NCBI GenBank assembly: GCA_018700525.1
Contig: JABITN010000073.1
Span: 62,001-126,000, forward strand
Direction of reading: 5' to 3'
Length of the DNA: 64,000 nt
From: Opitutales bacterium
GTDB lineage: Bacteria > Verrucomicrobiota > Verrucomicrobiia > Opitutales > Opitutaceae
Part shown: in pieces, positions 7,436 through 23,560 of the stretch
Position numbering within the stretch: position 1 is the stretch's first letter
How the letters are laid out: each line of letters begins with the position of its first letter
Program-made: the position numbers and the translations under genes
The notes under the pieces: model-generated
Database searches by the model: none
Told to the model about the DNA's origin: nothing
Seen by the model: only the letters and a program-made list of their open reading frames with translations

Positions 7436-7528
7436 AGTGAGTATCCTGATGGTTGATTTTTTTATAAATACGGTTTTGTTATTTTGCTAAAATATAGCTG
7501 TTCAGTTCTTGATTAAGCCTCATTGATT

Positions 7529-10417
7529 ATGCTGTTTTCGTTTCGGTCATTGTTGCTTCTTTTTTCGGTTTTTCTGTGGTCGCTCGCTTTGAGGGCGGAT
7601 CGTTTTATTCCAGTGAACACACAGGCTCCGGGCGAGGAACCGCCTTCGCCAGAAGAGGCGGCCGCTCTGATATCGGTTCCTGAAGGCTTTAGCGTTACGC
7701 TTTTTGCTGGGGAGCCGGAGGTTCGGCAGCCTATCGCGATGCAGATAGACGATCGGGGTCGATTATGGGTGGCAGAATCCTATTCGTACAAGGAATGGGA
7801 ATTCAAAGGACAGGATCGAATCCTCATTTTTGAAGATGGCGACAATGACGGTCGCTTTGATAAGCGAACGATATTTTGGGATAAGGGAACTCACTTGTCG
7901 GGGTTTGCTATCGGCTATGGCGGCGTGTGGATTTGCAATTCGCCCCGCCTGGAATTTATTCCGGATCGCGATGGCGACGATGTTCCTGACGGAGCCTTGG
8001 AGACGATTCTCGATGGTTTTTCGGTCGATGCGAAGCATAATTTCTTCAATGGGTTAACTTGGGGACTTGATGGATGGTTGTACGGTCGACACGGGATAAC
8101 GGCACCCTCGCTTGTTGGAGTTCCTGGGACTCCTAATGCAGAGCGCATAGATGTTGATTGCGGCATTTGGCGGATAGATCCGGTGACGCATACTTTTGAG
8201 ATGGTTCTTCGGGGGACGACCAATCCATGGGGACTTGATTGGAACGACGTGGGTGAGATGTTCTTTACGGGTAATGTGAATGGTCATCTTTGGCATGGAA
8301 TACCGGGCGCTCGGTATCCAAGAATGCATGGACAAGGTTTTTCCTTTCATGTCTACGATCGCATCGGCTTAACTGCGGATCACCTGCACCATGAAGGGGA
8401 GTGGACGGATCGGAGGAAGTTTCGCGATAATGCTGAAGGGCTGACCAATGAGTTAGGCGGAGGACATTCGCATGCGGGAGGCATGATCTATCTCGGGGAT
8501 AATTGGCCTGATGAATACCGGAATACGATATTCATGAGCAACACGCATGGAAGACGGATCAATAACGACATACTCGAGCGCCAAGGATCTGGATACGTGG
8601 GGCGTCATGGAAGGGACTTTCTAATATCGAACCAGCCATGGTACAAGGGGGTCACTCAAATCTATGGCCCCGATGGAGGCGTATTCATGTCGGATTGGAC
8701 TGACCTAGGTGAATGCCATGACAACGATGGGGTTCATCGTACAAGTGGGCGTATTTACAAAGTGGTGTACGGAGAAGCTGAAAAGGGGGGGGGATTGAAT
8801 TTGAAGGAAGAGTCAAATCGAGCTCTTGCTAATTATCAACTGCATCGGAACGAATGGTTTGCCCGTCATTCGCGACGGATTTTGAACGAGCGATTCGTGG
8901 GAGGCGTCGATGTATCGGACTCGAGGCCAATACTTGAGGCAATCGTTGACGAGAGAAAGGTTACGGTAGCGGAACAGTTGCGGGCTCTGTGGACTTTGCA
9001 TTCGGTTGGAGGAGTGGGCGAGAGTCGATTGACTGATCTATTGGATCACGCTAACGAGCACGTTAGAAGTTGGGCGATTCGTTTGATTGGCGAGGGTGGG
9101 AATGCGAGTGTTTCCCAATTCCAAAAGATTCGACTGATGGCGGAGGACGGAAAATCTCTTTTGGTCCGTTTGTATATCGCATCGACGCTTCCTCGGTTTG
9201 CTCAGGAACAGCAGTGGAGACTTGCGGAGTCGCTTGTGAAGGCGTTCGGATACGAATCGGACCAGAACCTGCCTCAAATGATTTGGTACGCTCTTGAGCC
9301 TCTAGTGGCGTCGGATCCGATGCGTGCGTTGGAGTGGTTGGATCGTTGTCGCGACCCAATGGTTTATCGATCTATTAGTCGACGGATAGCATCGGAGTTT
9401 GAATCGAACGATAGATATATTTCGGAATTGGTAACTGCATTCGATCGAGCATCGAGACGAGGAGACGAGCGTTACGCAAAAGCAGGGCTTGAAGGCTTGG
9501 AAGCTGCGTTTAATGGTTTGAAGGGAATTACGGCTCCGAAGAACTGGAGTCTGATCGCAAATTCTAGATTGGCCGAGATTCGCCTATTTGGCGAACGGTT
9601 CGATTCGATCTTTGGCAACAACCTAGAGATGTCGTCCAACGATTGGATACAACTCTTGCAAGAGCCAACCCTGCGCCGACAGGCAATACGAGAGTTGGCT
9701 GCATTCGATGATTTCAAGGTGGGCGCATTGTTGATTAAGGATTATCGGCGTTATGGTCGCGAGGACCGTCAGGCAGTTATTAGTACATTGAGTTCCAGGA
9801 AATCGTTGGCGACTGTACTGCTTCAAGCAATGCAATCGGGGAATGTGAAGCGATCTGAGGTTTCCGCTTATCACGCTCGGCAAATATTCGGTTTGGGTGA
9901 CGAAAAATTGGGTCGACAGTTGGAATCCGTTTGGGGAACGATTGGGCATACGCCAGCGGAAAAGCGCACGGAAATTGAGCATTGGCAGTCGCGGCTCACA
10001 CCTCGAATTCTTGCTAGTGCGGATACGCTAAATGGAAATGAAATATTTGAACGAAGCTGCGTCGCTTGTCATCGCCTATATGGAAAAGGCGGTAGCGTTG
10101 GTCCGGATTTAAGCGGGGCCGATCGCCAGAATCTTTACTATTTAATTGAAAACCTGGTCGATCCAAGTGCGGTCTTGCCAAGAGATTTTAGAATGACTTT
10201 GGTGTCGCTTAAGGATGGAAGAGTGCTTGCAGGAACGATTTCAGCTCAATCTCCGCATTCGATTACGCTCGTTGGGTTAGAGGGTGAGCATGTGATCGCG
10301 AATAATGATATTCTAAAAAAAGAGCAGGTGGAGCAATCGATTATGCCTGAAGGTCTCTTGCAGAATTTAACGGAAAACGAAGTCCGCGATCTAGTAGGCT
10401 TTTTACAGTCGAAATAG
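7529..10417 (+). CDS. PVC-type membrane-bound dehydrogenase with C-terminal CxxCH heme domain
   Basis: A 962-residue secreted protein. The N-terminal signal (LFSFRSLLLLFSVFLWSLAL) is followed by the PVC dehydrogenase beta-propeller domain (GFSVTLFAGEPEVRQPIAM, then DRILIFEDGDNDGRFDK, to about residue 420), a HEAT-like helical middle, and a cytochrome c-like domain with heme site CVACH (844-848) and a likely axial Met in SIMPEG. Resembles TIGR02604 plus TIGR02603. The family is expanded in Planctomycetota/Verrucomicrobiota and thought to oxidise sugars or alcohols using the heme as electron exit. The ATG at 7529 is preferred over a TTG two codons upstream. It follows an oxidoreductase and precedes a GDSL esterase. 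Confidence 0.9.
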   Translation: MLFSFRSLLLLFSVFLWSLALRADRFIPVNTQAPGEEPPSPEEAAALISVPEGFSVTLFAGEPEVRQPIAMQIDDRGRLWVAESYSYKEWEFKGQDRILIFEDGDNDGRFDKRTIFWDKGTHLSGFAIGYGGVWICNSPRLEFIPDRDGDDVPDGALETILDGFSVDAKHNFFNGLTWGLDGWLYGRHGITAPSLVGVPGTPNAERIDVDCGIWRIDPVTHTFEMVLRGTTNPWGLDWNDVGEMFFTGNVNGHLWHGIPGARYPRMHGQGFSFHVYDRIGLTADHLHHEGEWTDRRKFRDNAEGLTNELGGGHSHAGGMIYLGDNWPDEYRNTIFMSNTHGRRINNDILERQGSGYVGRHGRDFLISNQPWYKGVTQIYGPDGGVFMSDWTDLGECHDNDGVHRTSGRIYKVVYGEAEKGGGLNLKEESNRALANYQLHRNEWFARHSRRILNERFVGGVDVSDSRPILEAIVDERKVTVAEQLRALWTLHSVGGVGESRLTDLLDHANEHVRSWAIRLIGEGGNASVSQFQKIRLMAEDGKSLLVRLYIASTLPRFAQEQQWRLAESLVKAFGYESDQNLPQMIWYALEPLVASDPMRALEWLDRCRDPMVYRSISRRIASEFESNDRYISELVTAFDRASRRGDERYAKAGLEGLEAAFNGLKGITAPKNWSLIANSRLAEIRLFGERFDSIFGNNLEMSSNDWIQLLQEPTLRRQAIRELAAFDDFKVGALLIKDYRRYGREDRQAVISTLSSRKSLATVLLQAMQSGNVKRSEVSAYHARQIFGLGDEKLGRQLESVWGTIGHTPAEKRTEIEHWQSRLTPRILASADTLNGNEIFERSCVACHRLYGKGGSVGPDLSGADRQNLYYLIENLVDPSAVLPRDFRMTLVSLKDGRVLAGTISAQSPHSITLVGLEGEHVIANNDILKKEQVEQSIMPEGLLQNLTENEVRDLVGFLQSK

Positions 10418-11378: not shown

Positions 11379-12806
11379 ATGAATTTGTCTATTCTCGCCG
11401 TTTCAGAAACCTCCGGGTCCTATTGGCCATTCGCCGTTCTGGCCATGGGAATTGTGTTTGTTATTCTCGCGATAGCGGTTTTTCGAATCCATGCTTTTAT
11501 TTCGCTTATTCTGGCGGCTGTATTCGTTGGGGCGCTGTCCGATAGCTTGCCTGGCGCTGAGGAAGGTAATCATTTTGTGACTGCGATTGGGCTGGCTATG
11601 ACCGAATTCGGTACGACGGCGGGCAAAATTGCATGGGTGATTGCTTTGGCGGCGATTATCGGAGTTTGCCTGATGGAAAGTGGAGCGGCCGATCGAATCG
11701 TTCGAGGAATGGTTCGGACGTTGGGCGAATCGCGTGCAGGTGTGGCATTGGTGTTGTGCTCATTCTTTCTCTCGATTCCGGTATTTTTCGATACGGTGTT
11801 TTTTCTTTTGATCCCCTTGGCTCAGGCGTTGGCTTTTCGGCTGGGGCGGAACTACCTCTATTTTGTAATGGCGGTGTGTAGCGGGGGAGTTATCACCCAT
11901 GGACTGGTACCGCCGACGCCGGGTCCACTGGTAATGGTCGAGACTTTGGGCTTGAATCTTGGGTTCACGATTGTCGCAGGCATTGGTCTGGGCTTGATAC
12001 CGGCATTCTCGGGATTGTATTTCGGAAAATGGTTAGAAGGACGTTTGGATATTGGGGTTCGTGAAAGCCCAGGTATTAGAATTGTGGATATCGAAGCGAT
12101 CGTTTCGAAGGAGGATAGTGAATTGCCTTCGTTTTTCATGTCGATGCTGCCAGTGGTGTTGCCCGTTTTTTTAATTGCAGCGACTTCGTTTTTAGGAATC
12201 TGGACGACAGAAGGGCAGTTCTACGAACTTATGCAGATTCTTGGAAACAAGAATGTGGCTATGCTTTTGGGTACGATCATTGCTCTGTATTTGCTAGCGA
12301 AACAACGGGGAGTGAGCTTTCGAGCCTTAGGCGAAGTGATTGAAGGACCTCTTGGGATGGCTGGAACGATCATTTTGATCACTTCAGCTGGCGGTTCTTT
12401 TGGGGCGATGATTCGTCACGCGGGAGTAGGCGATTCAATTCGCATGGCTACCGAAGACACCGGGTTTTCGTTAATCATCATGGCCTGGCTTGTGGCAGCA
12501 ATAATGAAGGTTGCCCAAGGGTCAGGAACGGTTTCGATGATTACTACTTCGGGAATTATCGCCGCAATTATCGGAAATGGCACAGGGCTTGGATACAGTC
12601 CGGTTTATCTGTTTGCTGCGATTGCGTTTGGTTCGCAAATGGGTTCTTGGATGAACGACAGTGGATTCTGGGTTGTTTGCAAACTAAGTGGGTTTACTGA
12701 AAAGGAAACCCTCAAGACTTGGACCGCGTTGCTCGCGGTAATGGGAATCGTGGGACTCGTCGAAGTTTTGATCGTCTCATCGATTGTGCCGAATCTGTTT
12801 ATGTAG
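11379..12806 (+). CDS. GntP-family gluconate/sugar-acid:H+ symporter
   Basis: Inner-membrane permease of 475 residues with about a dozen hydrophobic segments, GntP/GntT family (gluconate, hexuronate or related acids, proton coupled). Family regions include VIALAAIIGVCLMESGAADR, SIPVFFDTVFFLLIPLA, GVITHGLVPPTPGPLVM and MKVAQGSGTVSMITTSG. It lies 245 bases after the GDSL gene; that gap holds no supported gene. Products of periplasmic sugar oxidation (aldonic acids) made by the preceding oxidoreductase and heme protein would be natural substrates, but this is inference from position. No gluconate kinase or dehydratase is nearby. Confidence 0.9.
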   Translation: MNLSILAVSETSGSYWPFAVLAMGIVFVILAIAVFRIHAFISLILAAVFVGALSDSLPGAEEGNHFVTAIGLAMTEFGTTAGKIAWVIALAAIIGVCLMESGAADRIVRGMVRTLGESRAGVALVLCSFFLSIPVFFDTVFFLLIPLAQALAFRLGRNYLYFVMAVCSGGVITHGLVPPTPGPLVMVETLGLNLGFTIVAGIGLGLIPAFSGLYFGKWLEGRLDIGVRESPGIRIVDIEAIVSKEDSELPSFFMSMLPVVLPVFLIAATSFLGIWTTEGQFYELMQILGNKNVAMLLGTIIALYLLAKQRGVSFRALGEVIEGPLGMAGTIILITSAGGSFGAMIRHAGVGDSIRMATEDTGFSLIIMAWLVAAIMKVAQGSGTVSMITTSGIIAAIIGNGTGLGYSPVYLFAAIAFGSQMGSWMNDSGFWVVCKLSGFTEKETLKTWTALLAVMGIVGLVEVLIVSSIVPNLFM

Positions 12807-12858
12807 TTTCCACATGGAAGCGGCTGATCTCTGAATGTCCATACTTGATCTTGGATTT

Positions 12859-12898
12859 CCACGCGAGTCCTTCGCGTCGCTACGTGGGAGTCGCGTGG
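12859..12898. repeat. Palindromic intergenic repeat (CCACGCGA family)
   Basis: Perfect 8-bp arms CCACGCGA (12859-12866) and TCGCGTGG (12891-12898) enclose a nested CGCGA/TCGCG hairpin. The first 26 bases match 51486-51511 at 23 positions. It sits between two convergent genes, where it might also act as a transcription barrier. Confidence 0.55.
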
Positions 12899-12934
12899 TT
12901 GACGTTGATAGATACTCGAGAACCTTTATTTCGC

Positions 12935-15900
12935 TTACCTGCCAGCCACCCATTTGGCGGCGTTGACTAGGATCTTTTGGTAATCAGGGTGATCGTGAAC
13001 ACGTTCGTCATGGCCAAGGGTGAATCCTACGATTCGAGCTTTGGGGTGTTCGGTGATCCAGACGGCGGCGTGTTTTTCGCCTGACTTAGCACTTACGCTG
13101 GTTTCGAGGAGCGATTTGATTTTGTTGGTTCCTTCTGGGGCGCCGCCGACGTTCATGTTGTAGAGTTCGTCGACTACATCGAAATTCGCTGAAACGCCTT
13201 TCATTATCGGGTGACGTTTAGCGACAACGCTTACGCTGAAAGGGCCCAGTTTATCGTGGCCGCGGGTTCCTCCACCGACGATTTGAGCATTGAGCTCAGG
13301 CCAATCTTTGTAGCCGTACCAGGTTCCTGGATGCAGCATAATAACGCCTTTGCCGGAATTGACTCGATCCATGAGGGCTTTGCGGTAGGCAGGCGTGTCG
13401 AATTCCTTTCGATTGACGCTGATGATAGCGACGTCCGCGTTGGCAAGTTCCTTGGTCGCTTGAGCGTTATCTTCGGTGTAGTGGACGGTGAGTCCGGCTT
13501 CCAGCAGTGTCTTGGAATCGGACTTGCCGAAGAACTCGTGAAATTTGTGGGACGAACCGCCGCCGATGATTAGCACTGAAGTTTTGCCTCTTTCCCAACG
13601 GACAGGCGTCGCTGGAATTGGAGGAGGGATAACACGACGGTTTAGAATTTTGGCTTTTGGCTTTGGGGTCGGTTTTTGTGCAACTGCTGGTTCGCTGGCT
13701 TCCCTAACGAGAAAGGCAATGAGGTTGCGGAGGTTTTCGGCCCCGAGCGCTTCGAATCCTTCCGGCATGAGGCTGCGCTTTGTGTTTTCGCGTTTAGCGA
13801 TGGTGGATTTTGCGATTTCCTTTACTCCGGCTTGGGTCGCGAGGACCAAGGTTGAGGTGTTTTCCGAGGAGATAACACCCGCGAATGTTTCCCCGCTTTT
13901 TGTAGTGATATTATGGGCCCAGTAGCTATCTTCAACTTCGCGATTCGGGTCGATGATTTGACCGAGCAGTTCGGGCGCCCCGTGCGTACCCATGCCATCA
14001 AGCGCAGGGCCAACGGCGGCTCCCGTATCGCCGAGCTTATGGCAAACGATACAGGCTCCGAAGACTGCCTTGCCTTTGACGGGGTCGCCTGGTTTTTCCA
14101 TTTCGGGAATAAGTCTAGCGATCAAGTCATCTTTTTCGGCGATCTCAGGAGCGATCTTGGCCAGTATACGATAAGCTGCACGATATGTGTTCCGATCCGG
14201 GTGGTTGCGCAGGCGTGAAAGGTTACCGGGGCCGACATCGGCTGGAAGAATTTTTCCTTCAGACATGTATTTGAGCAATTCCTGAGCCCATTTGGACCGT
14301 TTTACTATCTGATCGAAGGTCTTCAGTTTCAAGGAACCGTCCTGAGCTATGAAGTAGTTGATTAGCAACGTTCCCAGATCAGGTCCCGATACCTCGCCGA
14401 TTGCCGCGAGTACGCCTTCTTTTAAGGTGTCGCTTCCGGTGCCGTTTAGAATGTTCTTCAGCGCCGGGAGGATTTGTTGATTGTATTTACGGATACTTAC
14501 CAGACTTCGAGCGATGGTGGCACGTTGTTCTTCGCTGAGGATTCCCTGATTAAGTTTACCGAGCAATGCAGTCGTTAGGGCTTTTGTCTGGCCTTCGAGG
14601 TCACCTTTTTGGTCCCATTTAACAGCCATCGGAAGGACAAGCGTGTTAACGCTTTCATCTTTCAGCAATGACGCGATTACAGCTTTCAGAGCTGAAGTAA
14701 GAGCGGGGGGGTTTTCAATTCCTTCGGCTAGTCCGCGTAGAATGATTCCTTTCGTGACCGCGACATCCGAAGCTGCGCTTCCACAGGCCTTAAGCAGGCG
14801 AGCGGCATTGGCAGCCGCTTTGTTGTTGGCGAGGGCTGCAGGCGTAAGGGCCGAAGTGAATGCGAGCAAAGAGGCGTTTGGGGCCGTCTTGAGTGTGGCT
14901 TGCAGGACCGACACGGCGCGATCGGATGCTGCTGCGACGAGTGCCGAGCGTGTCCAGTCGTCCTGGGCAGCCTTGGCTTGGGCGACGATTTGAGCGGGAT
15001 TGGATTCGCTTGCTTTTTCGAAGCTGCGAAGGGCATCGCTTCCGATGAATTCGCCCTCGTCGCCATGGCGCTCGCGAAGGAGCCGATTGGCGGTATCGCG
15101 TATACGTTCGTTTTTACTTTGGCTTGCTTTCTGTAAAGCTACGATGTCGTTGGGATTCAATGACACTGGACCGACTGCTTGCGCTTGCTTGTGCTGGACC
15201 TTCCAAATGCGACCGTAGTAGTGATCACGATCGGGACGTACTGCGGCATTTGCAGGACCGTGAACGGGGCCACGGGTGTCGTTGTGAATGATCGCCTGGT
15301 TGCAGAAATCGACAAGGTAGATCGCTCCATCTGGGCCGGTCATCACTTCGATGGGGCGAAACCAGAGATTGTCGCTGCGGATGAACTCAGTTTCTTCGCG
15401 ACCAGCTTCTTTCGTTGCTCTGTAAGAGACCCCGTCTTTGGCGACATTGAAGTGACCAATGATGTTTAGAGTCGGCTCGCTGGTGAAGTAGCTCTGGTTC
15501 CATTTCTCGGGCCAAGCGCCACCCTCGTAGATGACGCAACCGGCGCCGGCTGTGTAGCGTCCGACCTGGTCGATTTGAACGTAAGCTTGTTGTTCCCATT
15601 CCATGGCAGGGAATGTCTTCGCCCCTGGGAGCAGGCCGTTGGTGCCACTAACGCTCGGAAGTTTGCCCTTTGCCAGTACGGACTCAGGGAGAACGACGTG
15701 GACGAGCGGATTGCCAGTGGTCGGCTGAGTATAGAAAACTTCGCCGGCCATTGTCGTATCCATACCCCAGGTGTTGCCGCCACGCGAAGCGTATTGTTCG
15801 AATGCGCTGCCGTCTGGTTTGAAGCGTACGACACCGCTGTTGATCGCTCCGAAATCTTTACTGCCGTCGCCTGAAGTAACGTTTGGGGATGATGAGTATC

Positions 15901-17281
15901 CATTAGTTGCGTACACCCAGCCATCGGCTCCGTAGTGTAGGTTGTTGATAACGGCGTGAGTGTCGCGAATCCCAAGATTGGTATAAAGCTTGGTGCGTTC
16001 GTCGGCAACATCGTCACCGTTGGTATCTTCGAGGAACCATATATCGGGGGCGCTCGCGGCGATGACGCCGTTTTTGTGAAAAACAAAGCTGTTTACGAGT
16101 TCGAGTTTATCGGCGAATACCTTTTTCGTATCCATGACGCCATCTCCGTCGGTATCCGTTAGGATGCTGATGCGGTCGAGCGGGTCCCGATCGTAGTCGC
16201 CAGGTTTGAGGGAGCCGGAGTCCATCCAAGGAACTACGTTTTGCTTGCGCAAACCGTTTGGGTACTCGGGAGTTTCGGCCACCCATAGGCGCCCCTGGTG
16301 ATCCCAATTGATATTCATCGGGTTGTTGATAAGCGGTTCCGATGCGACGAGGGTAAGCTGAAAATCAGGATGCACTTCTAAGTGATCCGGTAGCTTGGTC
16401 GGGTGGGGCACGCCGCCTTCGACATAACGCAGGGATTCGCCTAATTCGTCAGCTTTGCAGAGCATGTCTACATCGTCGCGCTTAGCGGCCCAGGCGATAC
16501 CGCGAAGAATCATGGCTCTTACGCCAATATGGGAGAAGTTCTTGTGCCAGTGGCCTGGAATATGAACGAATGAGCGGTAAGACCTACCTCCTTTGAGGGA
16601 GTTTTCGTAAGTCCAGATTTGTGGTTGGATATCATATATGTTGACGGCTTTGTTTTTGGCGACCGCTTCGGCTGCGCGTGCTTGGGCTTCTTGGTTCCCT
16701 TTTCCTTTCGTATCGATTGCTTTGGGTGTGTAGGCAGTAGCGAGGATTTTCGCTTCCGGCAAGATGTCCATATCGTAATAGATCTCGTCTTCTAAATCGA
16801 AATTGGAAACATCTTTGGTGATCGGATTTTCGACATTGGTGAAGTAGAGGCTCATCGGTGCCTCTAGGAATTTGGTCGTTCCATGGCGCCAAGAACCGCC
16901 GATGATGCTTTTATACCAGTCGGGGTCACGCGAGACGGCGCCGGCGTGCAAGACGACGAGTCCGCCGCCGCGTTTTAGAAACGTATTCAGATTTTCACGT
17001 TCTTCGCCATAGATATTGCCTGCTTCCTTGGAGTTGAGAATTAGGACATCTGTGTTGGCGAGTTGCTTCTTCGTCGGGAATTCTAAAGCTCCGTTACAAA
17101 CAACGCCGCGCGATTCTAGGAGGGGTTTCCAATCGGCCAAAAATTGCGGATGTTCGTGGGCGCCGGGAGCATGCGTCTTTTCACCAGCCCGGATAAAGAC
17201 GCGAATGGGGTCGGCCGCTTGGGCGGCGAGGGCCGACCATAGGAGACCAGCCAGTAGGAATAGGAGTGATTTTGATTTCAT
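12935..17281 (-). CDS. ThuA - PVC dehydrogenase - cytochrome c - ThuA fusion protein
   Basis: A 1448-residue secreted fusion. Order: signal peptide (MKSKSLLFLLAGLLWSALAA); ThuA/trehalose-utilisation-like domain (about 25-280, with VVLHAG); PVC dehydrogenase beta-propeller (about 300-700, from PDFQLTLVASEPLINNPMNI); HEAT-like helical region (about 715-1060); cytochrome c domain with heme site CIVCH (1077-1081) and candidate Met ligand in SLMPEG; a short Pro-rich linker (PKPKAKILNRR); and a second ThuA domain (about 1220-1448, from TSVLIIGGGSSHKFHEFF). ThuA proteins are flavodoxin/amidotransferase-like and linked to keto-disaccharide metabolism. It is the last gene of the minus-strand operon, 18 bases after the TIM-barrel gene. 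Start codon context lacks a ribosome binding site. Confidence 0.9.
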   Translation of the reverse strand: MKSKSLLFLLAGLLWSALAAQAADPIRVFIRAGEKTHAPGAHEHPQFLADWKPLLESRGVVCNGALEFPTKKQLANTDVLILNSKEAGNIYGEERENLNTFLKRGGGLVVLHAGAVSRDPDWYKSIIGGSWRHGTTKFLEAPMSLYFTNVENPITKDVSNFDLEDEIYYDMDILPEAKILATAYTPKAIDTKGKGNQEAQARAAEAVAKNKAVNIYDIQPQIWTYENSLKGGRSYRSFVHIPGHWHKNFSHIGVRAMILRGIAWAAKRDDVDMLCKADELGESLRYVEGGVPHPTKLPDHLEVHPDFQLTLVASEPLINNPMNINWDHQGRLWVAETPEYPNGLRKQNVVPWMDSGSLKPGDYDRDPLDRISILTDTDGDGVMDTKKVFADKLELVNSFVFHKNGVIAASAPDIWFLEDTNGDDVADERTKLYTNLGIRDTHAVINNLHYGADGWVYATNGYSSSPNVTSGDGSKDFGAINSGVVRFKPDGSAFEQYASRGGNTWGMDTTMAGEVFYTQPTTGNPLVHVVLPESVLAKGKLPSVSGTNGLLPGAKTFPAMEWEQQAYVQIDQVGRYTAGAGCVIYEGGAWPEKWNQSYFTSEPTLNIIGHFNVAKDGVSYRATKEAGREETEFIRSDNLWFRPIEVMTGPDGAIYLVDFCNQAIIHNDTRGPVHGPANAAVRPDRDHYYGRIWKVQHKQAQAVGPVSLNPNDIVALQKASQSKNERIRDTANRLLRERHGDEGEFIGSDALRSFEKASESNPAQIVAQAKAAQDDWTRSALVAAASDRAVSVLQATLKTAPNASLLAFTSALTPAALANNKAAANAARLLKACGSAASDVAVTKGIILRGLAEGIENPPALTSALKAVIASLLKDESVNTLVLPMAVKWDQKGDLEGQTKALTTALLGKLNQGILSEEQRATIARSLVSIRKYNQQILPALKNILNGTGSDTLKEGVLAAIGEVSGPDLGTLLINYFIAQDGSLKLKTFDQIVKRSKWAQELLKYMSEGKILPADVGPGNLSRLRNHPDRNTYRAAYRILAKIAPEIAEKDDLIARLIPEMEKPGDPVKGKAVFGACIVCHKLGDTGAAVGPALDGMGTHGAPELLGQIIDPNREVEDSYWAHNITTKSGETFAGVISSENTSTLVLATQAGVKEIAKSTIAKRENTKRSLMPEGFEALGAENLRNLIAFLVREASEPAVAQKPTPKPKAKILNRRVIPPPIPATPVRWERGKTSVLIIGGGSSHKFHEFFGKSDSKTLLEAGLTVHYTEDNAQATKELANADVAIISVNRKEFDTPAYRKALMDRVNSGKGVIMLHPGTWYGYKDWPELNAQIVGGGTRGHDKLGPFSVSVVAKRHPIMKGVSANFDVVDELYNMNVGGAPEGTNKIKSLLETSVSAKSGEKHAAVWITEHPKARIVGFTLGHDERVHDHPDYQKILVNAAKWVAGR

Positions 17282-17299
17282 GGTTTTCTGGGAAGGGGC

Positions 17300-18166
17300 T
17301 TATGTGCGATCTACGGGAATTTTCTTGAATTTTCGAGTCAAAGCGGTGAGCGATTCTTCAACCCCCATACGCTCGAGACTGGATGCTCCAACAAATCCTT
17401 GGGCATCGGTGAGTTGGTTGATGCGAGTGGCGTCCTCGGGGGTGTTGATCGGACCGCCATGCGAAAGGAGGAAAATATCCTTATTGATCGCTCGGCCTGC
17501 TTCGAAGATTTCTTGGCATCGAGCAGCAGCATCTTCCATGGAGCAAACGGCACCGGTTACGCCGATAGAGCCGCCAACGGTGGTGCCGACGTGAGCGATG
17601 ATTGCATCCGCGCCTGCCTTGGCCATGGCTGTGGCTTCTTCGGGCTTGGCGACGTAAACGACGCTGAAGAGATCCATCTTAGAAGCGATGGAGACCATCT
17701 CGACTTCCTTTTCGAAAGGCATGCCGGTTTCTTCCAAAACCTTTCGGAAGTGACCATCGACGATGCAGTGAGTAGGGAAGTTGTTAACCCCTGAAAACCC
17801 CATTTCTTTTACCTTGAGCAACCAGTGCCACATGCGGCGGCGCGGGTCGGTCGCGTGTACACCGCAAATGACGGGGATCTCTTCTATGGTGGGCAATACT
17901 TCAAACTCGCCGATTTCCATAGCAACCGCGTTGGCGTCTCCGTATGCCATCATACCGGCGGTCGAACCATGGCCGGACATGCGAAAACGTCCGGAGTTAT
18001 AAATGATCAGTAGATCAGCGCCGCCTCTTTCTATGAATTTTGCGCTAATGCCTGTTCCGGCTCCAGCTGCAATGATTGCTTCGTTGCGATCGAGAGTCGC
18101 TTGTAGGCGAGCTCGTACTTCGTCGCGCGTGTAAGGGTTTCCTTTTCCAGTCCAGGGATTTGGCAT
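17300..18166 (-). CDS. PEP-hydrolase-like TIM-barrel protein (Tm-1 C-terminal half)
   Basis: A 288-residue TIM-barrel protein of the 'phosphoenolpyruvate hydrolase-like / TIM-barrel signal transduction' family, which corresponds to the C-terminal half of the tomato antiviral protein Tm-1. Family stretches: AAGAGTGISAKFIERGGADL, NSGRFRMSGHGSTAG, EIPVICGVHATDP, GFSGVNNFPT and VGTTVGGSIGV. Cytoplasmic, no signal peptide. The partner half (UPF0261) is encoded two genes upstream in the same operon, with a cupin between them. The reaction is not established; aldolase-like or C-C hydrolase chemistry is plausible from the fold only. Confidence 0.85.
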   Translation of the reverse strand: MPNPWTGKGNPYTRDEVRARLQATLDRNEAIIAAGAGTGISAKFIERGGADLLIIYNSGRFRMSGHGSTAGMMAYGDANAVAMEIGEFEVLPTIEEIPVICGVHATDPRRRMWHWLLKVKEMGFSGVNNFPTHCIVDGHFRKVLEETGMPFEKEVEMVSIASKMDLFSVVYVAKPEEATAMAKAGADAIIAHVGTTVGGSIGVTGAVCSMEDAAARCQEIFEAGRAINKDIFLLSHGGPINTPEDATRINQLTDAQGFVGASSLERMGVEESLTALTRKFKKIPVDRT

Positions 18167-18224
18167 AATTTTAGATTTTTAGATTAGAAATTGTGTGATT
18201 GAAAATTGGATTTTGAAGTTTTCG

Positions 18225-18324
18225 TTGCCCACGAAGCTTACGAAGCCCACGAAGGTTCATCAAGGAAGATGTAGGATGTATTGGATTTGTTTAATTTTGG
18301 TGTTTCTTGTCCTTTCGTGGGCAA
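18225..18324. repeat. Inverted-repeat element (TTGCCCACGAA arms) between operon genes
   Basis: TTGCCCACGAA (18225-18235) recurs inverted as TTTCGTGGGCAA (18313-18324); a second CCCACGAAGG (18246-18255) pairs with the same right arm. The element fills most of the 162-base gap between the cupin and TIM-barrel genes, unlike the other tightly packed gaps of this operon (18-20 bases), which suggests an inserted miniature repeat. It overlaps no coding sequence. Confidence 0.5.
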
Positions 18325-18328
18325 ATTC

Positions 18329-18763
18329 CTATTTGGTCTCTGGGCGGTTTGGTTTAGCTCGGAGTGTGACCCAGGGTTCTTCGGTGGATACGTCGACTAT
18401 GTTGGGTCCATCAGCTTCGGATGGTGAAAGGATGGCGAGAAAGGTGACGTCTTCGTCGAAGGGATTGTAGGTGCCGTGGATAGCGTTTTGAGGAACGAGG
18501 GCCATTTCGCCTGCCTTGAGAATTCTGTATTCATTCTCTACCCACTGTTCCGCTTGTCCGGATACTACATAGATAATTTCTTCGCGTGTTGGATGACGAT
18601 GGAAAGGGTGTGAGTTTCCGGCAGCAATGGTCGCTCGAACCATCATAAGTTGTTCGGCTCCTACGAGATCCTTGTTGGAAAGCCATTCAACGGCTGCCCA
18701 AGGATCTTGTTCCTGAGTCACGTCTGCGGATTGCATGAAGCGATTTTGAGTGTTTTCGGACAT
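18329..18763 (-). CDS. Small cupin-domain protein
   Basis: A 144-residue single-domain cupin. Motif 1 is HPFHRHPTREEIIYVVSG (metal ligands His-x-His...Glu) and motif 2 lies around VPQNAIHGTYN (His). Small stand-alone cupins bind a metal and act as sugar or metabolite isomerases, dioxygenases or sensors; the reaction is not readable. It lies between the two split halves of a Tm-1-like protein in one operon, 20 bases after UPF0261, so it probably works in the same pathway. Confidence 0.85.
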   Translation of the reverse strand: MSENTQNRFMQSADVTQEQDPWAAVEWLSNKDLVGAEQLMMVRATIAAGNSHPFHRHPTREEIIYVVSGQAEQWVENEYRILKAGEMALVPQNAIHGTYNPFDEDVTFLAILSPSEADGPNIVDVSTEEPWVTLRAKPNRPETK

Positions 18764-18783
18764 ATGCTATTGGTGGATTTGAA

Positions 18784-19992
18784 TTATGAAGAATGCTTTT
18801 CTATGATTTCGAGAAGTTTGTTGGCGGCTGCTGCTGAGAAACTTGGGTCGTTTATTTCGAGGTCATAGTCGATGACTTCGACGGTGGCATTCTTGTGAAT
18901 GGTAGAGAATAGAGCCTCGTCGGCTATTGGATCATGGAAAGGTTTTCCGACCCCGTTGATTTCGCTGATAGCACGGAGGGGATTGAGAATGACCGTTGGG
19001 GCGGTGTTGTTGTTGGCTTTTTCTGCGATGATACGTCCGATCGTCGCACACTCATCCGCGTTTGTTCGCATGAGGGTGACCTGGGGGTTGTGAATGTAGA
19101 AATTGCGGCCTTCGAAAACTTCAGGAACGGTCTCGCGAGCTCCGAAGTTTACCATATCGACGCAACCCGGGGCGATGATTGCGGGTATCTTGGCGTGACT
19201 CATGGCGTCGAGTCTATTAGGACCGGCTGAAAGGACTCCTCCTACGGTTTCGTCGGCCCATTCGGTCGTGGTTAAATCGAGGATACCTGCGACCATGCCA
19301 CTTTCGACTAAGCTTTCCATCGCTTGCCCACCGGCTCCGGTTGCTGCGAAGACGAGGACTTCGTAGCCAGCCTCTTCTAGGAGCGCCTTGGCTGCGTTGA
19401 CGCAATTGGTAGTGTTTCCGAACATGCTGGCGACAATGATTGGTTTGTCATCAGTTGAGTCCGTTCGGGGTGCGATCATGCCGCAGATTGCTCCGGCGGC
19501 CCGGCTGAAAATCATTTTAGAAATTCGGTTGAGCCCGTTCACGTCCAGAACGGCGGGGATCATCGTAATATCTTTCGTCCCGACATAGTGAGCGACGTTG
19601 CCACTGGCTAGTGTAGAAACCATCACTTTGGGAAAGCCTAGAGGAAGGGCTCGCATGCCGGATGTGGCAATCGCAGTGCCGCCTCCGCCGCCAAGGGAGA
19701 TGATGCCGTTAATTCTTCCCTCTTCGACTAGCTGGGCAAGCAGGACGGGGATTGCGGTCGACATCGAGCTGACGCATTCGCCTCGATCTTTACGTTGGAT
19801 AAGCACATCGAGGTCAATCTTCGCCGATTCCGCTACCTGGTGCCGGGTTACGTCTGGCTTGATTTTTGGAGAGCCACCAGTGCCTACGTCGATGAGTAGA
19901 GTATCGAAGCCGTGGGCTCGAATTTGCTCAGCCACGTAGGCGTGTTCGGGGCCTTTCGAATCGAGGGTTCCTAGGACTGCAATCGTTGGCAT
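18784..19992 (-). CDS. UPF0261 / Tm-1-like ATP-binding protein
   Basis: A 402-residue cytoplasmic protein of the UPF0261 family, the N-terminal half of plant Tm-1, for which an ATP-binding fold is known. Family features: IAVLGTLDSKGPEHAYVAEQ at the N-terminus, SLGGGGGTAIATSGMRALPL (glycine loop, about 99-118), MIPAVLDVNGLNRISKMIF, and GCVDMVNFGARETVP. It is the first gene of a minus-strand operon with a cupin, the matching TIM-barrel half and the ThuA fusion. A divergent AraC-type regulator starts 217 bases away and likely controls it. Function in bacteria is not established. Confidence 0.88.
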   Translation of the reverse strand: MPTIAVLGTLDSKGPEHAYVAEQIRAHGFDTLLIDVGTGGSPKIKPDVTRHQVAESAKIDLDVLIQRKDRGECVSSMSTAIPVLLAQLVEEGRINGIISLGGGGGTAIATSGMRALPLGFPKVMVSTLASGNVAHYVGTKDITMIPAVLDVNGLNRISKMIFSRAAGAICGMIAPRTDSTDDKPIIVASMFGNTTNCVNAAKALLEEAGYEVLVFAATGAGGQAMESLVESGMVAGILDLTTTEWADETVGGVLSAGPNRLDAMSHAKIPAIIAPGCVDMVNFGARETVPEVFEGRNFYIHNPQVTLMRTNADECATIGRIIAEKANNNTAPTVILNPLRAISEINGVGKPFHDPIADEALFSTIHKNATVEVIDYDLEINDPSFSAAAANKLLEIIEKHSS

Positions 19993-20123
19993 GGTTGGGG
20001 TGGTGTTTAAAAATTACTGAATGGCGATTTATTGAACAGTCTTATCGTTTAGGAAAGGCGAGAAGCTAGCGTTGCTAGGGGAGAGCGGCAAAGCAAATTC
20101 ATCAACATAAACCTATTGAAAAC

Positions 20124-20133
20124 ACACATGTGT
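20124..20133. promoter_or_regulatory. Small palindrome in the AraC/UPF0261 divergent gap
   Basis: ACACATGTGT is a perfect 10-bp palindrome in the 217-base gap between the divergent operon and the AraC-type gene. A place for regulator binding is possible, but AraC proteins usually bind direct repeats, so this is only a candidate. Nothing else is seen in the gap. Confidence 0.25.
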
Positions 20134-20209
20134 TTGAGGAGTGCGGGAGTCTCCATCCGATGAATTGGATTGATCTATTGGAATTCCTACATTTTTTGAG
20201 TATGAGGCT

Positions 20210-21082
20210 ATGTCGGTTAAAAAAGATGAGTACGTAATGAGGGATGATGTCCAAATTTTGGGGGATTCGTCTTATTTGCTCGTTCGTTCCGACGAAGTCG
20301 AGGAACGGGATTGGATGGCAGGCAGCCCCGTGTGTCCGTTGTTGAGTCAGCATCATGTTGCCCATGCCGGGATTTTGCGGTCTCGGTTTCCCTTTGAAAT
20401 CGTGCGCGCGGATCAGTCTGGCTCTTATATGATGGCTTGTTTCGGCGGGGAAGGCCGAGTGTTGGTCGATGGGGCTTGGAAAACAGTGCGTTCGGGAGAG
20501 GCTTGTTTGTTACCGCCGTTCGTGCGCAACGCGTTTAAATGCGTCGAAGGGAAATCGTGGGATTTTTGTTGGGTTCGCTATTTGGAATCGAGAGAACGCA
20601 AGCCGATTGTTTCTCAGAATTCACCGGTTTTAAGAACTTACGATAATGCTCCATTGCGGTCGGCGATCGAGGGATTGTATGCGGAAACCCTTGGAGCGAT
20701 GAATCCGGGAGTTTTGGGGCATTGGGTGGAGTTGGTGCACCAGTATGCATTGCGATTTGCTCAACCGCATGATTCGGATGATCGACTTTGGCGATTGTGG
20801 AATCGAGTAGAGCCGGAACTGGAGCGGAAGTGGAGCTTGTTCGAACTTTCGGAAATCGCCCATGTGAGCGAGGAGCATTTGAGGCGATTGTGTCGGAAGC
20901 GTTACGGACGCAGTCCGATGCAGCATCTGACGTTTTTGCGAATTCAACGAGCGAAGAATTTATTGAGCTCTACGGACGAGAAAATTGAGACGATTGCCCG
21001 TTTAGTCGGCTATGAGAATCCGTTTACCTTCTCTTCTTTGTTTAAAAAATGGGTTGGTTGGAGCCCGTCGAGGTATCGCTGA
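20210..21082 (+). CDS. AraC-family transcriptional regulator
   Basis: A 290-residue regulator: an N-terminal cupin-like sensor (about 20-160, with GEACLLPPF) and a C-terminal AraC double helix-turn-helix (about 190-290), including FELSEIAHVSEEHLRRLCRK and IETIARLVGYENPFTFSSLF followed by KKWVGWSPSRYR. Probably senses a sugar or other small molecule and activates neighbouring genes. Divergent from the UPF0261/cupin/TIM-barrel/ThuA operon, the likely target. Start ATG at 20210 has a weak purine stretch upstream (TATGAGG). Convergent with the PNPOx gene. Confidence 0.92.
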   Translation: MSVKKDEYVMRDDVQILGDSSYLLVRSDEVEERDWMAGSPVCPLLSQHHVAHAGILRSRFPFEIVRADQSGSYMMACFGGEGRVLVDGAWKTVRSGEACLLPPFVRNAFKCVEGKSWDFCWVRYLESRERKPIVSQNSPVLRTYDNAPLRSAIEGLYAETLGAMNPGVLGHWVELVHQYALRFAQPHDSDDRLWRLWNRVEPELERKWSLFELSEIAHVSEEHLRRLCRKRYGRSPMQHLTFLRIQRAKNLLSSTDEKIETIARLVGYENPFTFSSLFKKWVGWSPSRYR

Positions 21083-21123: not shown

Positions 21124-21663
21124 TTACAAGATATTCGTGGGGTTGCCGTCTATAGTGTTTCGGTTCTTTTGGTCCCAATAGTCGCGAATACCTTCTTCGC
21201 CTTTGTTTTCGGCCCATTTGCACAGGGTCTCACGTTCGCCTTGTAGTTTCATTATGGGGACGGCGTAGCCGCATGACGTTTGAACGGTTTTTATATCTAC
21301 GAGAAAAACCTGTCGCTTGCCTATTCGTTCATTCCAAAGGGAACTGCATTCGCTCCAATTAGCGTCGTGCTCATGGATTACTTGCGCATGGCCGTAAGCG
21401 CGCAGTATGAGTGGAGAACTGCCGAACGAGCACCACATTATGGTCATGCGGCTATTTTCTTGGATGTGGCCGGCGGTTTCATTGCCGCTGCCCGTAAGGT
21501 TTAGCCATGCTATCCGATTCGGTCCCAAAACCTTGAGGCTGTCTATGCCTTTGGGCGAAATATTGATTCGTCCATCGGCAAGCGCTGTCGATACGAAAAA
21601 AATCGGTTGCTGTTCAATGAAGGAAGTATGTTGGTCGGAAAGTTCTGTGAATTGCTTGGCCAT
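21124..21663 (-). CDS. Pyridoxamine 5'-phosphate oxidase family (flavin-binding) protein
   Basis: A 179-residue split-barrel flavoprotein of the PNPOx-like superfamily. Recognisable parts are FFVSTALADGRINISPKGID, the strand RIAWLNLTGSGNETAGHI, and RMTIMWCSFGSSPLILRAYG. This subfamily is annotated 'pyridoxamine 5'-phosphate oxidase family protein' but is not the vitamin B6 enzyme; likely an FMN/F420/heme-binding oxidoreductase of unknown substrate. A GYAVP stretch near the C-terminus is typical of the subgroup. No operon partner: it is convergent with the AraC gene and its upstream neighbour is a broken SDR gene on the other strand. Confidence 0.8.
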   Translation of the reverse strand: MAKQFTELSDQHTSFIEQQPIFFVSTALADGRINISPKGIDSLKVLGPNRIAWLNLTGSGNETAGHIQENSRMTIMWCSFGSSPLILRAYGHAQVIHEHDANWSECSSLWNERIGKRQVFLVDIKTVQTSCGYAVPIMKLQGERETLCKWAENKGEEGIRDYWDQKNRNTIDGNPTNIL

Positions 21664-21771
21664 TGGAGGGGCGTCAGAATTGTGGTAAGTATTAGCGAAC
21701 TTCTATTCGATTGAATTTGGAGGGTCGTTCATGTGGGGTCAAGTGAAGCATTGCCAAACCGAGGATAAGAG

Positions 21772-22146
21772 GTGAGTTTGAACCAGGATAAAACTAAAAG
21801 GCAAGGCTGCGGTAATTACTGGAAGTACTAGTGGAATGGGGAAGGCTATTGCGCCGCTAAGGGGGCGATGGTTTCGCTTATACGACAAGTCGCAATTGAT
21901 TATTCTCCAATAATTCGGGCGAATGTCCTGTGTCCCGGTTCTGTTGAAACGCCAATGTTGCATGACTCGGCTGCAGCATTTCCAGACCGCTCAAAAGCGA
22001 TAGCGGATGCTGCGGACCGAACTCCGATGAAGCGATTGGGGACACCTGAGGATATTGTAAATACAGCCTTGTTTTTGGCCTGCGAAGATTCTTCGTGGAT
22101 TTACGGTACGGCTCTAAGTATCGATGGAGGAGTGATGGTATGTTAG
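21772..22146 (+). pseudogene. Short-chain dehydrogenase/reductase, internally deleted and frameshifted
   Basis: Remnant of an SDR-type NAD(P)-dependent oxidoreductase. A GTG at 21772 opens SLNQDK; a one-base slip in an A-run near 21790-21793 changes frame to KLKGKAAVITGSTSGMGKAI with the TGxxxGxG cofactor motif. Then the frame jumps near 21850 to CAAKGAMVSLIRQVAIDYSP, whose CAAK is the end of the YxxxK active-site motif without its Tyr, and runs normally through VLCPGSVETPM to YGTALSIDGG. Roughly 130 central residues, including the catalytic Ser and Tyr, are missing. About 125 codons remain of about 250. Confidence 0.8.
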
Positions 22147-22174
22147 GAGAATTGATCTTGTTGATTACTATTTC

Positions 22175-23560
22175 CTAATTTCTGATTATTGCGAAGCTGT
22201 TAGCTTCTTGGTCGTTCGATTGTTCTATCCACTCTTGCATGTAGGTTTGATGCGAATACAGGATGCCTTGATATTCGGGGTGAGTTGCGAGGTTATTAAG
22301 TTCGCCAGGATCTTTTTGAAGATCGACCAAGGATTCTCGCTGGTTGCCCTCGATATAGACGCAGTATTTGTAGCGGTCGCTACGCAGCATGCGCCCGATA
22401 TCGTTTTCCGAAACGACATATTGCCGGCTCTCTTGAAGTTCTTTTCCTTCGGCGATTTGCCTTAGGCTGCGGCCTATTAGGTGAGAGGGTATCTCGATTC
22501 CCGCGTAGTCGCATAGGGTTGGCAGGATGTCGATACCGGTAGAAATTAGGTGTGTGTCGTTTACGACACCTGCGGGGATGGACCCGTTGTGACGCATCAG
22601 GAAAGGCACGCCGGAGGATTCTTCGTAAAAATGATTTTTAGATGCGAGTCCGTGGGCCGCATCCATGTCGCCGTGATCAGCGGTGAACAATACGAGAGTA
22701 TTTTCCTCGAGTTGGTTTGCTTTTAAAGCATCGAGAATCTTGGCAATGTGGCTATCGACGCGTTCGGTGAGTCGGCAGTAGATCCAGCGATAATAGCGCC
22801 ACTGTAACTCGTCGTATTCTTTTCGGATGATTTTAGCTGGCGTTATAGCATCGACTTTGAGGCTGCTTTCAATGGCGATTGGTTCACCTGTTTGGATATT
22901 GTGATTTGGAGGCAAGGGCGGTAGCTGATCCAGCGGTAGTTGTGTGGCTTGCTTGTAGAGTTCGTCCACGAGAGGGAGCCTTCGGGGCAAGTACTTGTAG
23001 GCGTTGAAGGCGAAACAAATATCGTGAGGATTGATGAACGAAGCGACGACGAAAAACGGGTTTTCACGCGGTGTCTCAATGAATTCGATACAAGCATCGG
23101 GTAGGGCATCGCGTTCGTTTTTGAAAAATTTGTCATAACCAGATTTACGTGGTTCGAGCGAAGGAGCGAGGTGTGTCTTGCCGCCGTAGAAGGTGTCGTA
23201 TCCGGCCCGTTTCATGAGTTTACCGAGAGAGTTCTCGTCGACGTGTTCAGGGATGTCGGCTTTCATGCCGTTGTTGAATACGCCTAATCGTCCAGGCATC
23301 ATTCCAGTTGCCATAGAAACGCGACTGGGCATGCATACGGGATTGGCGACGTAGGCATTGGTGAAGCGGACGCCCTGGTTTGCGAGCGAATCTAAGGCTG
23401 GCGTCTCGAGGTATGGGTTTCCGGCAGCACTCATCATGCCCGCATGATGCTGGTCGGTGATGATGAAAACGATGTTAGGTCGTTCGTCTGTGGCGGAAGA
23501 GTGAAGCGCGGTCGCAAGTAACCACGCTCCGGTTAACAACAGGGTTTTACTGAGCTTCAT
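22175..23560 (-). CDS. Secreted type I (FGly) sulfatase
   Basis: A 461-residue sulfatase with a signal peptide (MKLSKTLLLTGAWLLATALH). Metal ligands lie in NIVFIITDQHHAG; the formylglycine site CMPSR (C76-R80) sits in CMPSRVSMATGMMPGR, meeting the C-x-P-x-R rule for anaerobic or FGE maturation; LFTADHGDMDAAHG holds the second metal/sulfate ligands. Expected to cleave sulfate esters from glycans in the periplasm. No maturase gene is in the window. The MFS transporter upstream on the same strand probably imports the product. S1 subfamily and substrate cannot be assigned by eye. Confidence 0.92.
   Translation of the reverse strand: MKLSKTLLLTGAWLLATALHSSATDERPNIVFIITDQHHAGMMSAAGNPYLETPALDSLANQGVRFTNAYVANPVCMPSRVSMATGMMPGRLGVFNNGMKADIPEHVDENSLGKLMKRAGYDTFYGGKTHLAPSLEPRKSGYDKFFKNERDALPDACIEFIETPRENPFFVVASFINPHDICFAFNAYKYLPRRLPLVDELYKQATQLPLDQLPPLPPNHNIQTGEPIAIESSLKVDAITPAKIIRKEYDELQWRYYRWIYCRLTERVDSHIAKILDALKANQLEENTLVLFTADHGDMDAAHGLASKNHFYEESSGVPFLMRHNGSIPAGVVNDTHLISTGIDILPTLCDYAGIEIPSHLIGRSLRQIAEGKELQESRQYVVSENDIGRMLRSDRYKYCVYIEGNQRESLVDLQKDPGELNNLATHPEYQGILYSHQTYMQEWIEQSNDQEANSFAIIRN

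Follow-up and report, generated by a model that had tools for sequence, protein, structure and literature searches.

What do the two halves of the plant protein Tm-1 do when they occur as separate proteins in bacteria, next to a cupin and a very large exported protein? The question is raised by a locus in a stretch of 64,000 nucleotides from an Opitutales bacterium (Verrucomicrobiota; GenBank assembly GCA_018700525.1, contig JABITN010000073.1, positions 62,001 to 126,000), referred to here as the window. The original prediction, made from the letters alone, described an operon encoding both Tm-1 halves (a UPF0261 protein and a PEP_hydrolase-type barrel) together with a cupin and a giant ThuA/haem protein, beside a divergent AraC gene. 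This gene content is borne out: the genes for UPF0261, cupin, barrel and giant protein are all intact, lie on the minus strand in that reading order, and the AraC gene is present as described (Table 1). We suggest, tentatively and as a little short of an even chance, that they form an AraC-controlled catabolic gene set with exported oxidation, kinase, barrel and cupin steps acting on a sugar-type substrate.

The cupin type, the giant type and the Tm-1 pair are inherited as a unit. Neighbourhoods were compared in the window and 80 related loci from Verrucomicrobiota and Bacteroidota, where open reading frames in unannotated loci were called mechanically, and co-inheritance was followed in 288 Verrucomicrobiota genomes, some of them incomplete. 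UPF0261 is linked to the barrel in 42-43 of the 81 loci, and 29 of the 31 genomes in which a barrel locus lacks UPF0261 carry it elsewhere; the other two have 2.9-3.0 Mb and may be incomplete. In the genome sample, UPF0261 and barrels over the cut-off occur in an identical set of 21 genomes with equal copy numbers (including 2/2 and 3/3), and one further genome has a barrel match under the cut-off. In Bacteroidota the pair is found together in 7 of 8 cases, the exception being a UPF0261 match cut at a contig end.

With thresholds of E 1e-15 for the cupin subfamily and E 1e-150 for the giant subfamily, the window's cupin type is found in 16 genomes and its giant type in 14, and all of these (16/16 and 14/14) lie inside the 21 pair genomes. 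The wider families are otherwise common, with 3-26 Cupin_2 matches per genome and 13-41 matches to PF23500, which is absent from one of the 21 genomes; the link with the pair is therefore specific to these subfamilies. At genus level, with genera taken as independent, the odds are about 1 in 4e12 for the cupin and about 1 in 4e9 for the giant, figures which overstate the significance because related genomes break the assumed independence but which are still extreme by genus. Co-inheritance also holds where the genes are unlinked, as three genomes (G187, G190 and G199) have the genes at four separate loci with all of them present. The repeated cupin and ThuA/haem partners that the original prediction pointed to are strongly evident in the neighbourhoods: a cupin on the same strand within one or two genes of the barrel gene in 19 of the 81 loci, more than expected by chance, and a PF23500 protein near it in 25-32, by the distance allowed. 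Two other candidates were set aside, namely ApbE as a core partner, seen in one arrangement only, and the neighbours (e.g. c12) that three genomes of a single genus share around unlinked UPF0261 genes, a case of within-genus synteny.

At 18 loci the AraC gene points away from the first pathway gene. The AraC spacer contains a conserved 21-bp element, about ATGTGnATTTTCGATAGG. Close relatives have the element twice in direct orientation, at a distance of 63-65 bp in most (53 bp in one; 63 bp in the window). A matrix built from eight copies finds the element in ten held-out loci, L130 (score 25.3), L034 (25.2), L089, L090 and L033 (21.5), L127 (19.1), L068, L129, L123 and L153. All 12 matches scoring at least 20, training and held-out copies together, fall in an AraC or operon spacer, while a 1.96 Mb Markov control gave 11 matches scoring at least 14.5, so that chance matches mix in below 20. 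When at most two mismatches are allowed, the core pattern is also found ahead of the unlinked giant gene, at 63 bp in G187 and G190 and at 7 bp from the called start in G199, as well as close to the unlinked cupin genes of G217, G178 and G251. The element is thus a candidate operator that would connect the AraC gene with the operon as well as with unlinked cupin and giant genes. An attempt to extend the regulon in G223 was dropped, as a loose-pattern genome search gave 18 matches against 6 for the reversed control and the pattern was too loose.

The original prediction had placed a single operon under the AraC gene. The clustering with a divergent AraC gene stands for this locus, but the operon is not essential, since elsewhere the genes are spread over up to four loci in several genomes. 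From the scattered loci and the putative operator near unlinked members, the gene set is therefore best described as a candidate regulon with variable clustering, more than a fixed operon.

The first product of the operon belongs to UPF0261 by a wide margin, with 207.2 bits (E 2.3e-61) to PF06792 and 279.5 bits (E 1.8e-83) to PF23189, against a cut-off of 27. Its nearest solved structures are Tm-1 (Z about 41) and then PDB entry 9MPY (Z 31.7); the identity is about 38% to tomato Tm-1 over 381 residues and 28% to 9MPY. The latter is Saro_1862, a UPF0261 protein, and its title states bound acetovanillone. PMC13101465 describes MarK as a single-component kinase that begins acetovanillone catabolism in the same strain, Novosphingobium aromaticivorans, opening a carboxylase/phosphatase route, and Saro_1862 is most likely this MarK. 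The bacterial function of the pair had been called unknown, which no longer holds entirely: the kinase assignment of MarK dates from 2025. Many of the UPF0261 motifs (DTK, GGxxG, TExxD and RT) are common to family members including 9MPY. By its likeness in sequence and fold to 9MPY, most likely MarK, the window's UPF0261 protein is predicted to be a small-molecule kinase.

Where UPF0261 occurs apart from the barrel it has other partners, a class II aldolase in Thermus or a HAD hydrolase in an hpa cluster. On plasmid pTF21c of Thermus brockianus (L169) the reading frames of UPF0261 and a class II aldolase/adducin overlap, genes of the creatininase family and of a tripartite carboxylate transporter lie nearby, and no barrel partner is annotated; this is possibly a second kinase-plus-lyase pairing. 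In Rhizobium and Shinella (L170, L172) the gene lies by hpa genes and adjoins those for a HAD hydrolase, a phosphotransferase and two aminotransferases, which perhaps belong to an aromatic-amine route. Two further observations concern the pair itself. In Bradyrhizobium sp. 131 (L112:10928-12340) a pyruvate kinase gene comes after the pair and a flavin adenine dinucleotide (FAD) enzyme, and two genomes (G237 and G240; loci L143 and L144) hold a second, divergent pair beside an AraC-like gene, the second barrel of L143 being about 27% identical to the window's.

The second Tm-1 half scores 345.9 bits against PF09370 (cut-off 33.8). It matches Mll9387 of Mesorhizobium loti (PDB 2p10), a member of this family, at E 3.8e-79, and its model, of middling confidence (mean predicted local distance difference test score 73), aligns to this solved homologue with Z 28.4 and 46% identity in the fold alignment. 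The best non-self folds are indole-glycerol-phosphate synthase (IGPS), tryptophan synthase alpha (TrpA), triosephosphate isomerase (TIM) and 4ml9, an entry entitled "with the conserved phosphate binding site". PEPM/isocitrate lyase barrels are not among the best 50 fold rows, an absence that excludes nothing. Invariant residues are H192, H236-G237, S262-S263 and E265-R266. Of the earlier description as a PEP-hydrolase-like barrel, the TIM barrel of PF09370 stands; the nearest folds and families are phosphate-binding barrels, and the name "PEP hydrolase" is a label and no evidence of chemistry. The barrel is predicted to act on a phosphorylated substrate.

The two halves are conserved to sharply different degrees. 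Bacteroidota barrels (L037, L047, L057, L073) are 77-80% identical to that of the window and form a clade nested inside Verrucomicrobiota in the barrel tree, while their UPF0261 partners are just 40-42% identical, below those of Thermomicrobium and a haloarchaeon (48-50%). A quick-search UPF0261 tree places Verrucomicrobiota in one group. Enlarged PEP_hydrolase-family proteins of about 580-610 amino acids are encoded on the opposite strand near a normal pair in Azospirillum (L110:4806-6632) and Qingshengfaniella (L175:8481-10229).

In the cupin the classical metal ligands are intact, and H55, H57, P58, E62, G69, E72, G85, H96 and R135 are invariant in 13 homologues including one from S. meliloti. 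In several lineages without a linked cupin, a Dabb protein adjoins the pair instead. The two were found together at none of the 81 loci, and some genomes hold both at separate places.

From N- to C-terminus the giant protein has a ThuA domain, a DUF7133 propeller (with a match to PF23500), a cytochrome domain whose only haem motif is CIVCH (residue 1077), and a second ThuA domain. Its N-terminus, MKSKSLLFLLAGLLWSALAAQAADP, is judged by eye to be a typical Sec signal. Both TIGR02604 (246.7 bits, cut-off 122.2) and TIGR02603 (104 bits, cut-off 68.15) are matched. Across the loci the exported enzyme varies: besides the window's ThuA-propeller-cytochrome-ThuA order, there are ThuA-propeller, propeller-ThuA, DUF1080-propeller-cytochrome and ThuA-DUF1080-propeller-cytochrome forms. 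No relevant paper came up in a literature search that combined ThuA, 3-keto sugars and cytochromes.

Based on these features, a pathway can be proposed. From its signal peptide and domains, the giant protein would oxidise a sugar-type substrate outside the cytoplasm, pass electrons to its own cytochrome c, and its ThuA domains would act on the oxidised product, which would then be imported. UPF0261 would phosphorylate the imported product with ATP, as its characterised relative suggests. The barrel could then bind the phosphate group and convert the intermediate, most likely by cleavage, as suggested by its fold, its conserved phosphate-site motifs and the exchange of partners. Finally, the metal-binding cupin, or Dabb in other lineages, might perform an auxiliary isomerisation or ring-opening, and in a few genomes a C3 product might be taken up by glycerate kinase. 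Class II aldolases and HAD hydrolases often handle phosphorylated compounds. A kinase followed by conversion of a phospho-substrate is proposed because of the kinase relative, the phosphate barrels and the exchange of the barrel for an aldolase or HAD enzyme. The order of exported first and cytoplasmic later, already part of the original prediction, fits the localisation predicted for the proteins. It can further be speculated, at rather long odds, that the Tm-1 pair combines a kinase with a phospho-substrate lyase, that the haem-linked exported oxidase makes a keto-sugar-type intermediate which is imported, phosphorylated and cleaved, and that plant Tm-1 unites the kinase and lyase functions in one protein, its native chemistry being the same.

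Several points weigh against the proposed sugar pathway. Unlinked UPF0261 genes are without the operator. Several genomes have the pair without the giant or the cupin, one of them (G134) without any PF23500 protein, and therefore the pair serves other pathways too. The substrate of MarK is a phenol, the window's UPF0261 protein is closer to Tm-1 than to 9MPY, and the identity of MarK with Saro_1862 is our own deduction. Lastly, the barrel's phosphate site could serve flavin mononucleotide (FMN) and not a substrate, because its weak second family, nitronate monooxygenase (NMO), consists of flavin enzymes.

The nature of the substrate is where the first alternative enters: the set may degrade a plant phenolic or phenolic glycoside, with the giant protein releasing or oxidising the sugar part, UPF0261 phosphorylating the phenolic hydroxyl like MarK, and the aryl phosphate or side chain being the target of barrel and cupin. 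The acetovanillone bound in 9MPY and the UPF0261 genes in 4-hydroxyphenylacetate clusters of Shinella and Rhizobium agree with it, as does a Thermomicrobium pair near PEP/pyruvate-binding and PEP-utilizing genes, which may resemble the HpeHI phenol kinase. However, the hpa-cluster UPF0261 genes have no barrel partner, and no carboxylase, ring dioxygenase or CoA-ligase gene is found in the operon or among the recurring neighbours, which are sugar genes. In some loci the haem protein contains a DUF1080 3-keto-disaccharide hydrolase domain or has one as a neighbour; Cytophagales add ThuA, Gfo/Idh, xylose-isomerase-like and GH43 genes to the pair; in Alphaproteobacteria it occurs with sugar ABC transporters, Gfo/Idh and cupins, in one case with a beta-L-arabinofuranosidase; and glycerate kinase is present in four loci (L060, L098, L123 and L130). 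From these neighbours we infer a sugar-type substrate, which the context favours, and consider a phenolic one unlikely.

A somewhat smaller chance is given to a barrel that is FMN-dependent and NMO-like, with UPF0261 serving it, e.g. by activating or delivering its substrate, and no phosphorylated carbon intermediate. All 41 barrel members scanned have NMO as their second Pfam family (best E 4.9e-6), and ApbE flavin-transferase genes lie near the barrel in six loci. The NMO match of the window barrel spans about 50 residues only, however, the best non-self folds (IGPS, TrpA, TIM) are non-flavin phosphate barrels, although a shared fold shows no function, and it is a class II aldolase that takes the barrel's place in Thermus. 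The older idea of TIM-barrel signal transduction would make the pair a regulatory or stress module beside varied catabolic genes, and not a pathway enzyme. Very diverse neighbourhoods outside Verrucomicrobiota and Bacteroidota speak for it, as does the ability of plant Tm-1 to bind viral replication proteins (PMC5028733). Invariant residues of catalytic type, a characterised kinase relative and a co-inheritance that is specific to one cupin and one exported enzyme subfamily make it improbable. Least probable is that the genes are co-inherited through shared travel on mobile islands and not through a common pathway: the nested Bacteroidota clade of the barrel tree is consistent with transfer, but the genomes with all genes kept at four loci, the candidate operator shared by barrel and giant, and the lack of any lone cupin or giant of the window's type among the 288 genomes speak against it.

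Table 1. Features of the Tm-1-type locus, in positions of the window.
Feature	Position	Strand	Evidence
UPF0261 / Tm-1 N-terminal-type protein, 402 aa, predicted small-molecule kinase	18784..19992	-	PF06792, PF23189; solved relatives 9MPY and Tm-1
Small cupin, 144 aa, metal site H55, H57, E62, H96 intact	18329..18763	-	Cupin_2; conservation among homologues
PEP_hydrolase (PF09370) TIM barrel, 288 aa, Tm-1 C-terminal-type, predicted phospho-substrate enzyme	17300..18166	-	Profile; fold matches
Exported ThuA - DUF7133 propeller - CxxCH cytochrome c - ThuA giant protein, 1448 aa	12935..17281	-	Profiles
CIVCH haem-binding motif of the giant protein	14039..14053	-	Motif, residue 1077
Divergent AraC-family regulator, 290 aa	20210..21082	+	HTH_18 E 8.7e-22; one step outside the originally predicted interval
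Candidate operator copy 1, AAATGTAGGAATTCCAATAGA	20174..20194	-	Conserved spacer alignment; score 21.6; training copy
Candidate operator copy 2, ACATGTGTGTTTTCAATAGGT	20111..20131	-	Same orientation, 63 bp from copy 1; score 24.5; training copy
GntP-family permease, convergent neighbour	11379..12806	+	PF02447 E 2.4e-96

Along the operon, in the order of transcription, the intergenic gaps are 20, 162 and 18 bp, and the AraC/UPF0261 spacer (19993-20209) is 217 bp long. Promoter and terminator scans of 12700-20400 gave counts no higher than shuffled sequence. The closest relative locus, L027 from Opitutales, has a barrel 95% identical to that of the window. In both loci a PNPOx-type flavoprotein gene (179 amino acids in the window) and a sulfatase gene adjoin the AraC gene, at 21124-23560 in the window, where they come after it. 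A second PVC-type haem protein of 964 amino acids, with propeller and CxxCH but no ThuA, is encoded on the plus strand at 7523-10417, and directly after it come a GDSL gene and the GntP permease. A GntP gene near the giant gene is found in two genomes only, the window's and one other (L145), and the permease is therefore kept as a possible uptake route of the gene set.

The split pair, the plant fusion and a predicted interaction of the halves were already published in 2016 (PMC5028733), and the link of UPF0261 and barrel in fungi was recovered through profiling (PMC8963296). What appears to be new is the full set and its regulon: no published description of the cupin/exported-haem/AraC set or of the operator was found in a search that lacked most subscription papers. 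The set extends the pair by a single cupin type, a single exported haem-linked enzyme and a single AraC regulator whose operator can be recognised. It gives a testable idea of the native role of Tm-1 and links the pair with the kinase assigned in 2025; it also names enzymes, suggests the order in which they act and provides a regulatory read-out with which the inducing compound could be found. For ThuA and PVC-type haem domains, abundant and little characterised, it may supply a function as well.

Compared with known systems, the locus shares parts with several. In the Thu system, ThuA comes with ThuB and thuEFGK, whereas here the ThuA domains are fused into another protein; no trehalose-utilisation genes (ThuB Gfo/Idh, thuEFGK ABC transporter) are among the genes scanned between 7523 and 23560, nor is there a Gfo/Idh match anywhere in the window, and the locus does not count as a Thu system. 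The giant protein resembles PVC-type haem-binding CxxCH proteins in its propeller, its CxxCH domain and both TIGR models, but differs in its two flanking ThuA domains and in having close homologues only in Tm-1-pair genomes among those surveyed. The barrel shares family and fold with Mll9387, named a putative phosphonopyruvate hydrolase, for which we know of a structure only and of no tested function. The UPF0261-barrel-cupin cluster of rhizobial pSymA has the same three cytoplasmic families in a row, with the cupin metal ligands kept, but there a TetR gene and a sugar ABC transporter replace the AraC gene and the exported haem protein. With MarK (9MPY), the window's protein shares the UPF0261 family, the two-domain fold and the family-wide motifs; it differs in its obligate barrel partner and in an operon without carboxylase or phosphatase genes, and none of the Hpe/Acv/MarK pathway genes (three-subunit biotin carboxylase, phosphatase) is among the genes scanned around it. 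Tm-1-like genes are found in nearly all sequenced land plants (PMC5028733). Both domains of plant Tm-1 come from the same two families as the window pair, but in plants they form one polypeptide, while here they are two genes with a cupin gene between them and an exported enzyme as an additional partner.

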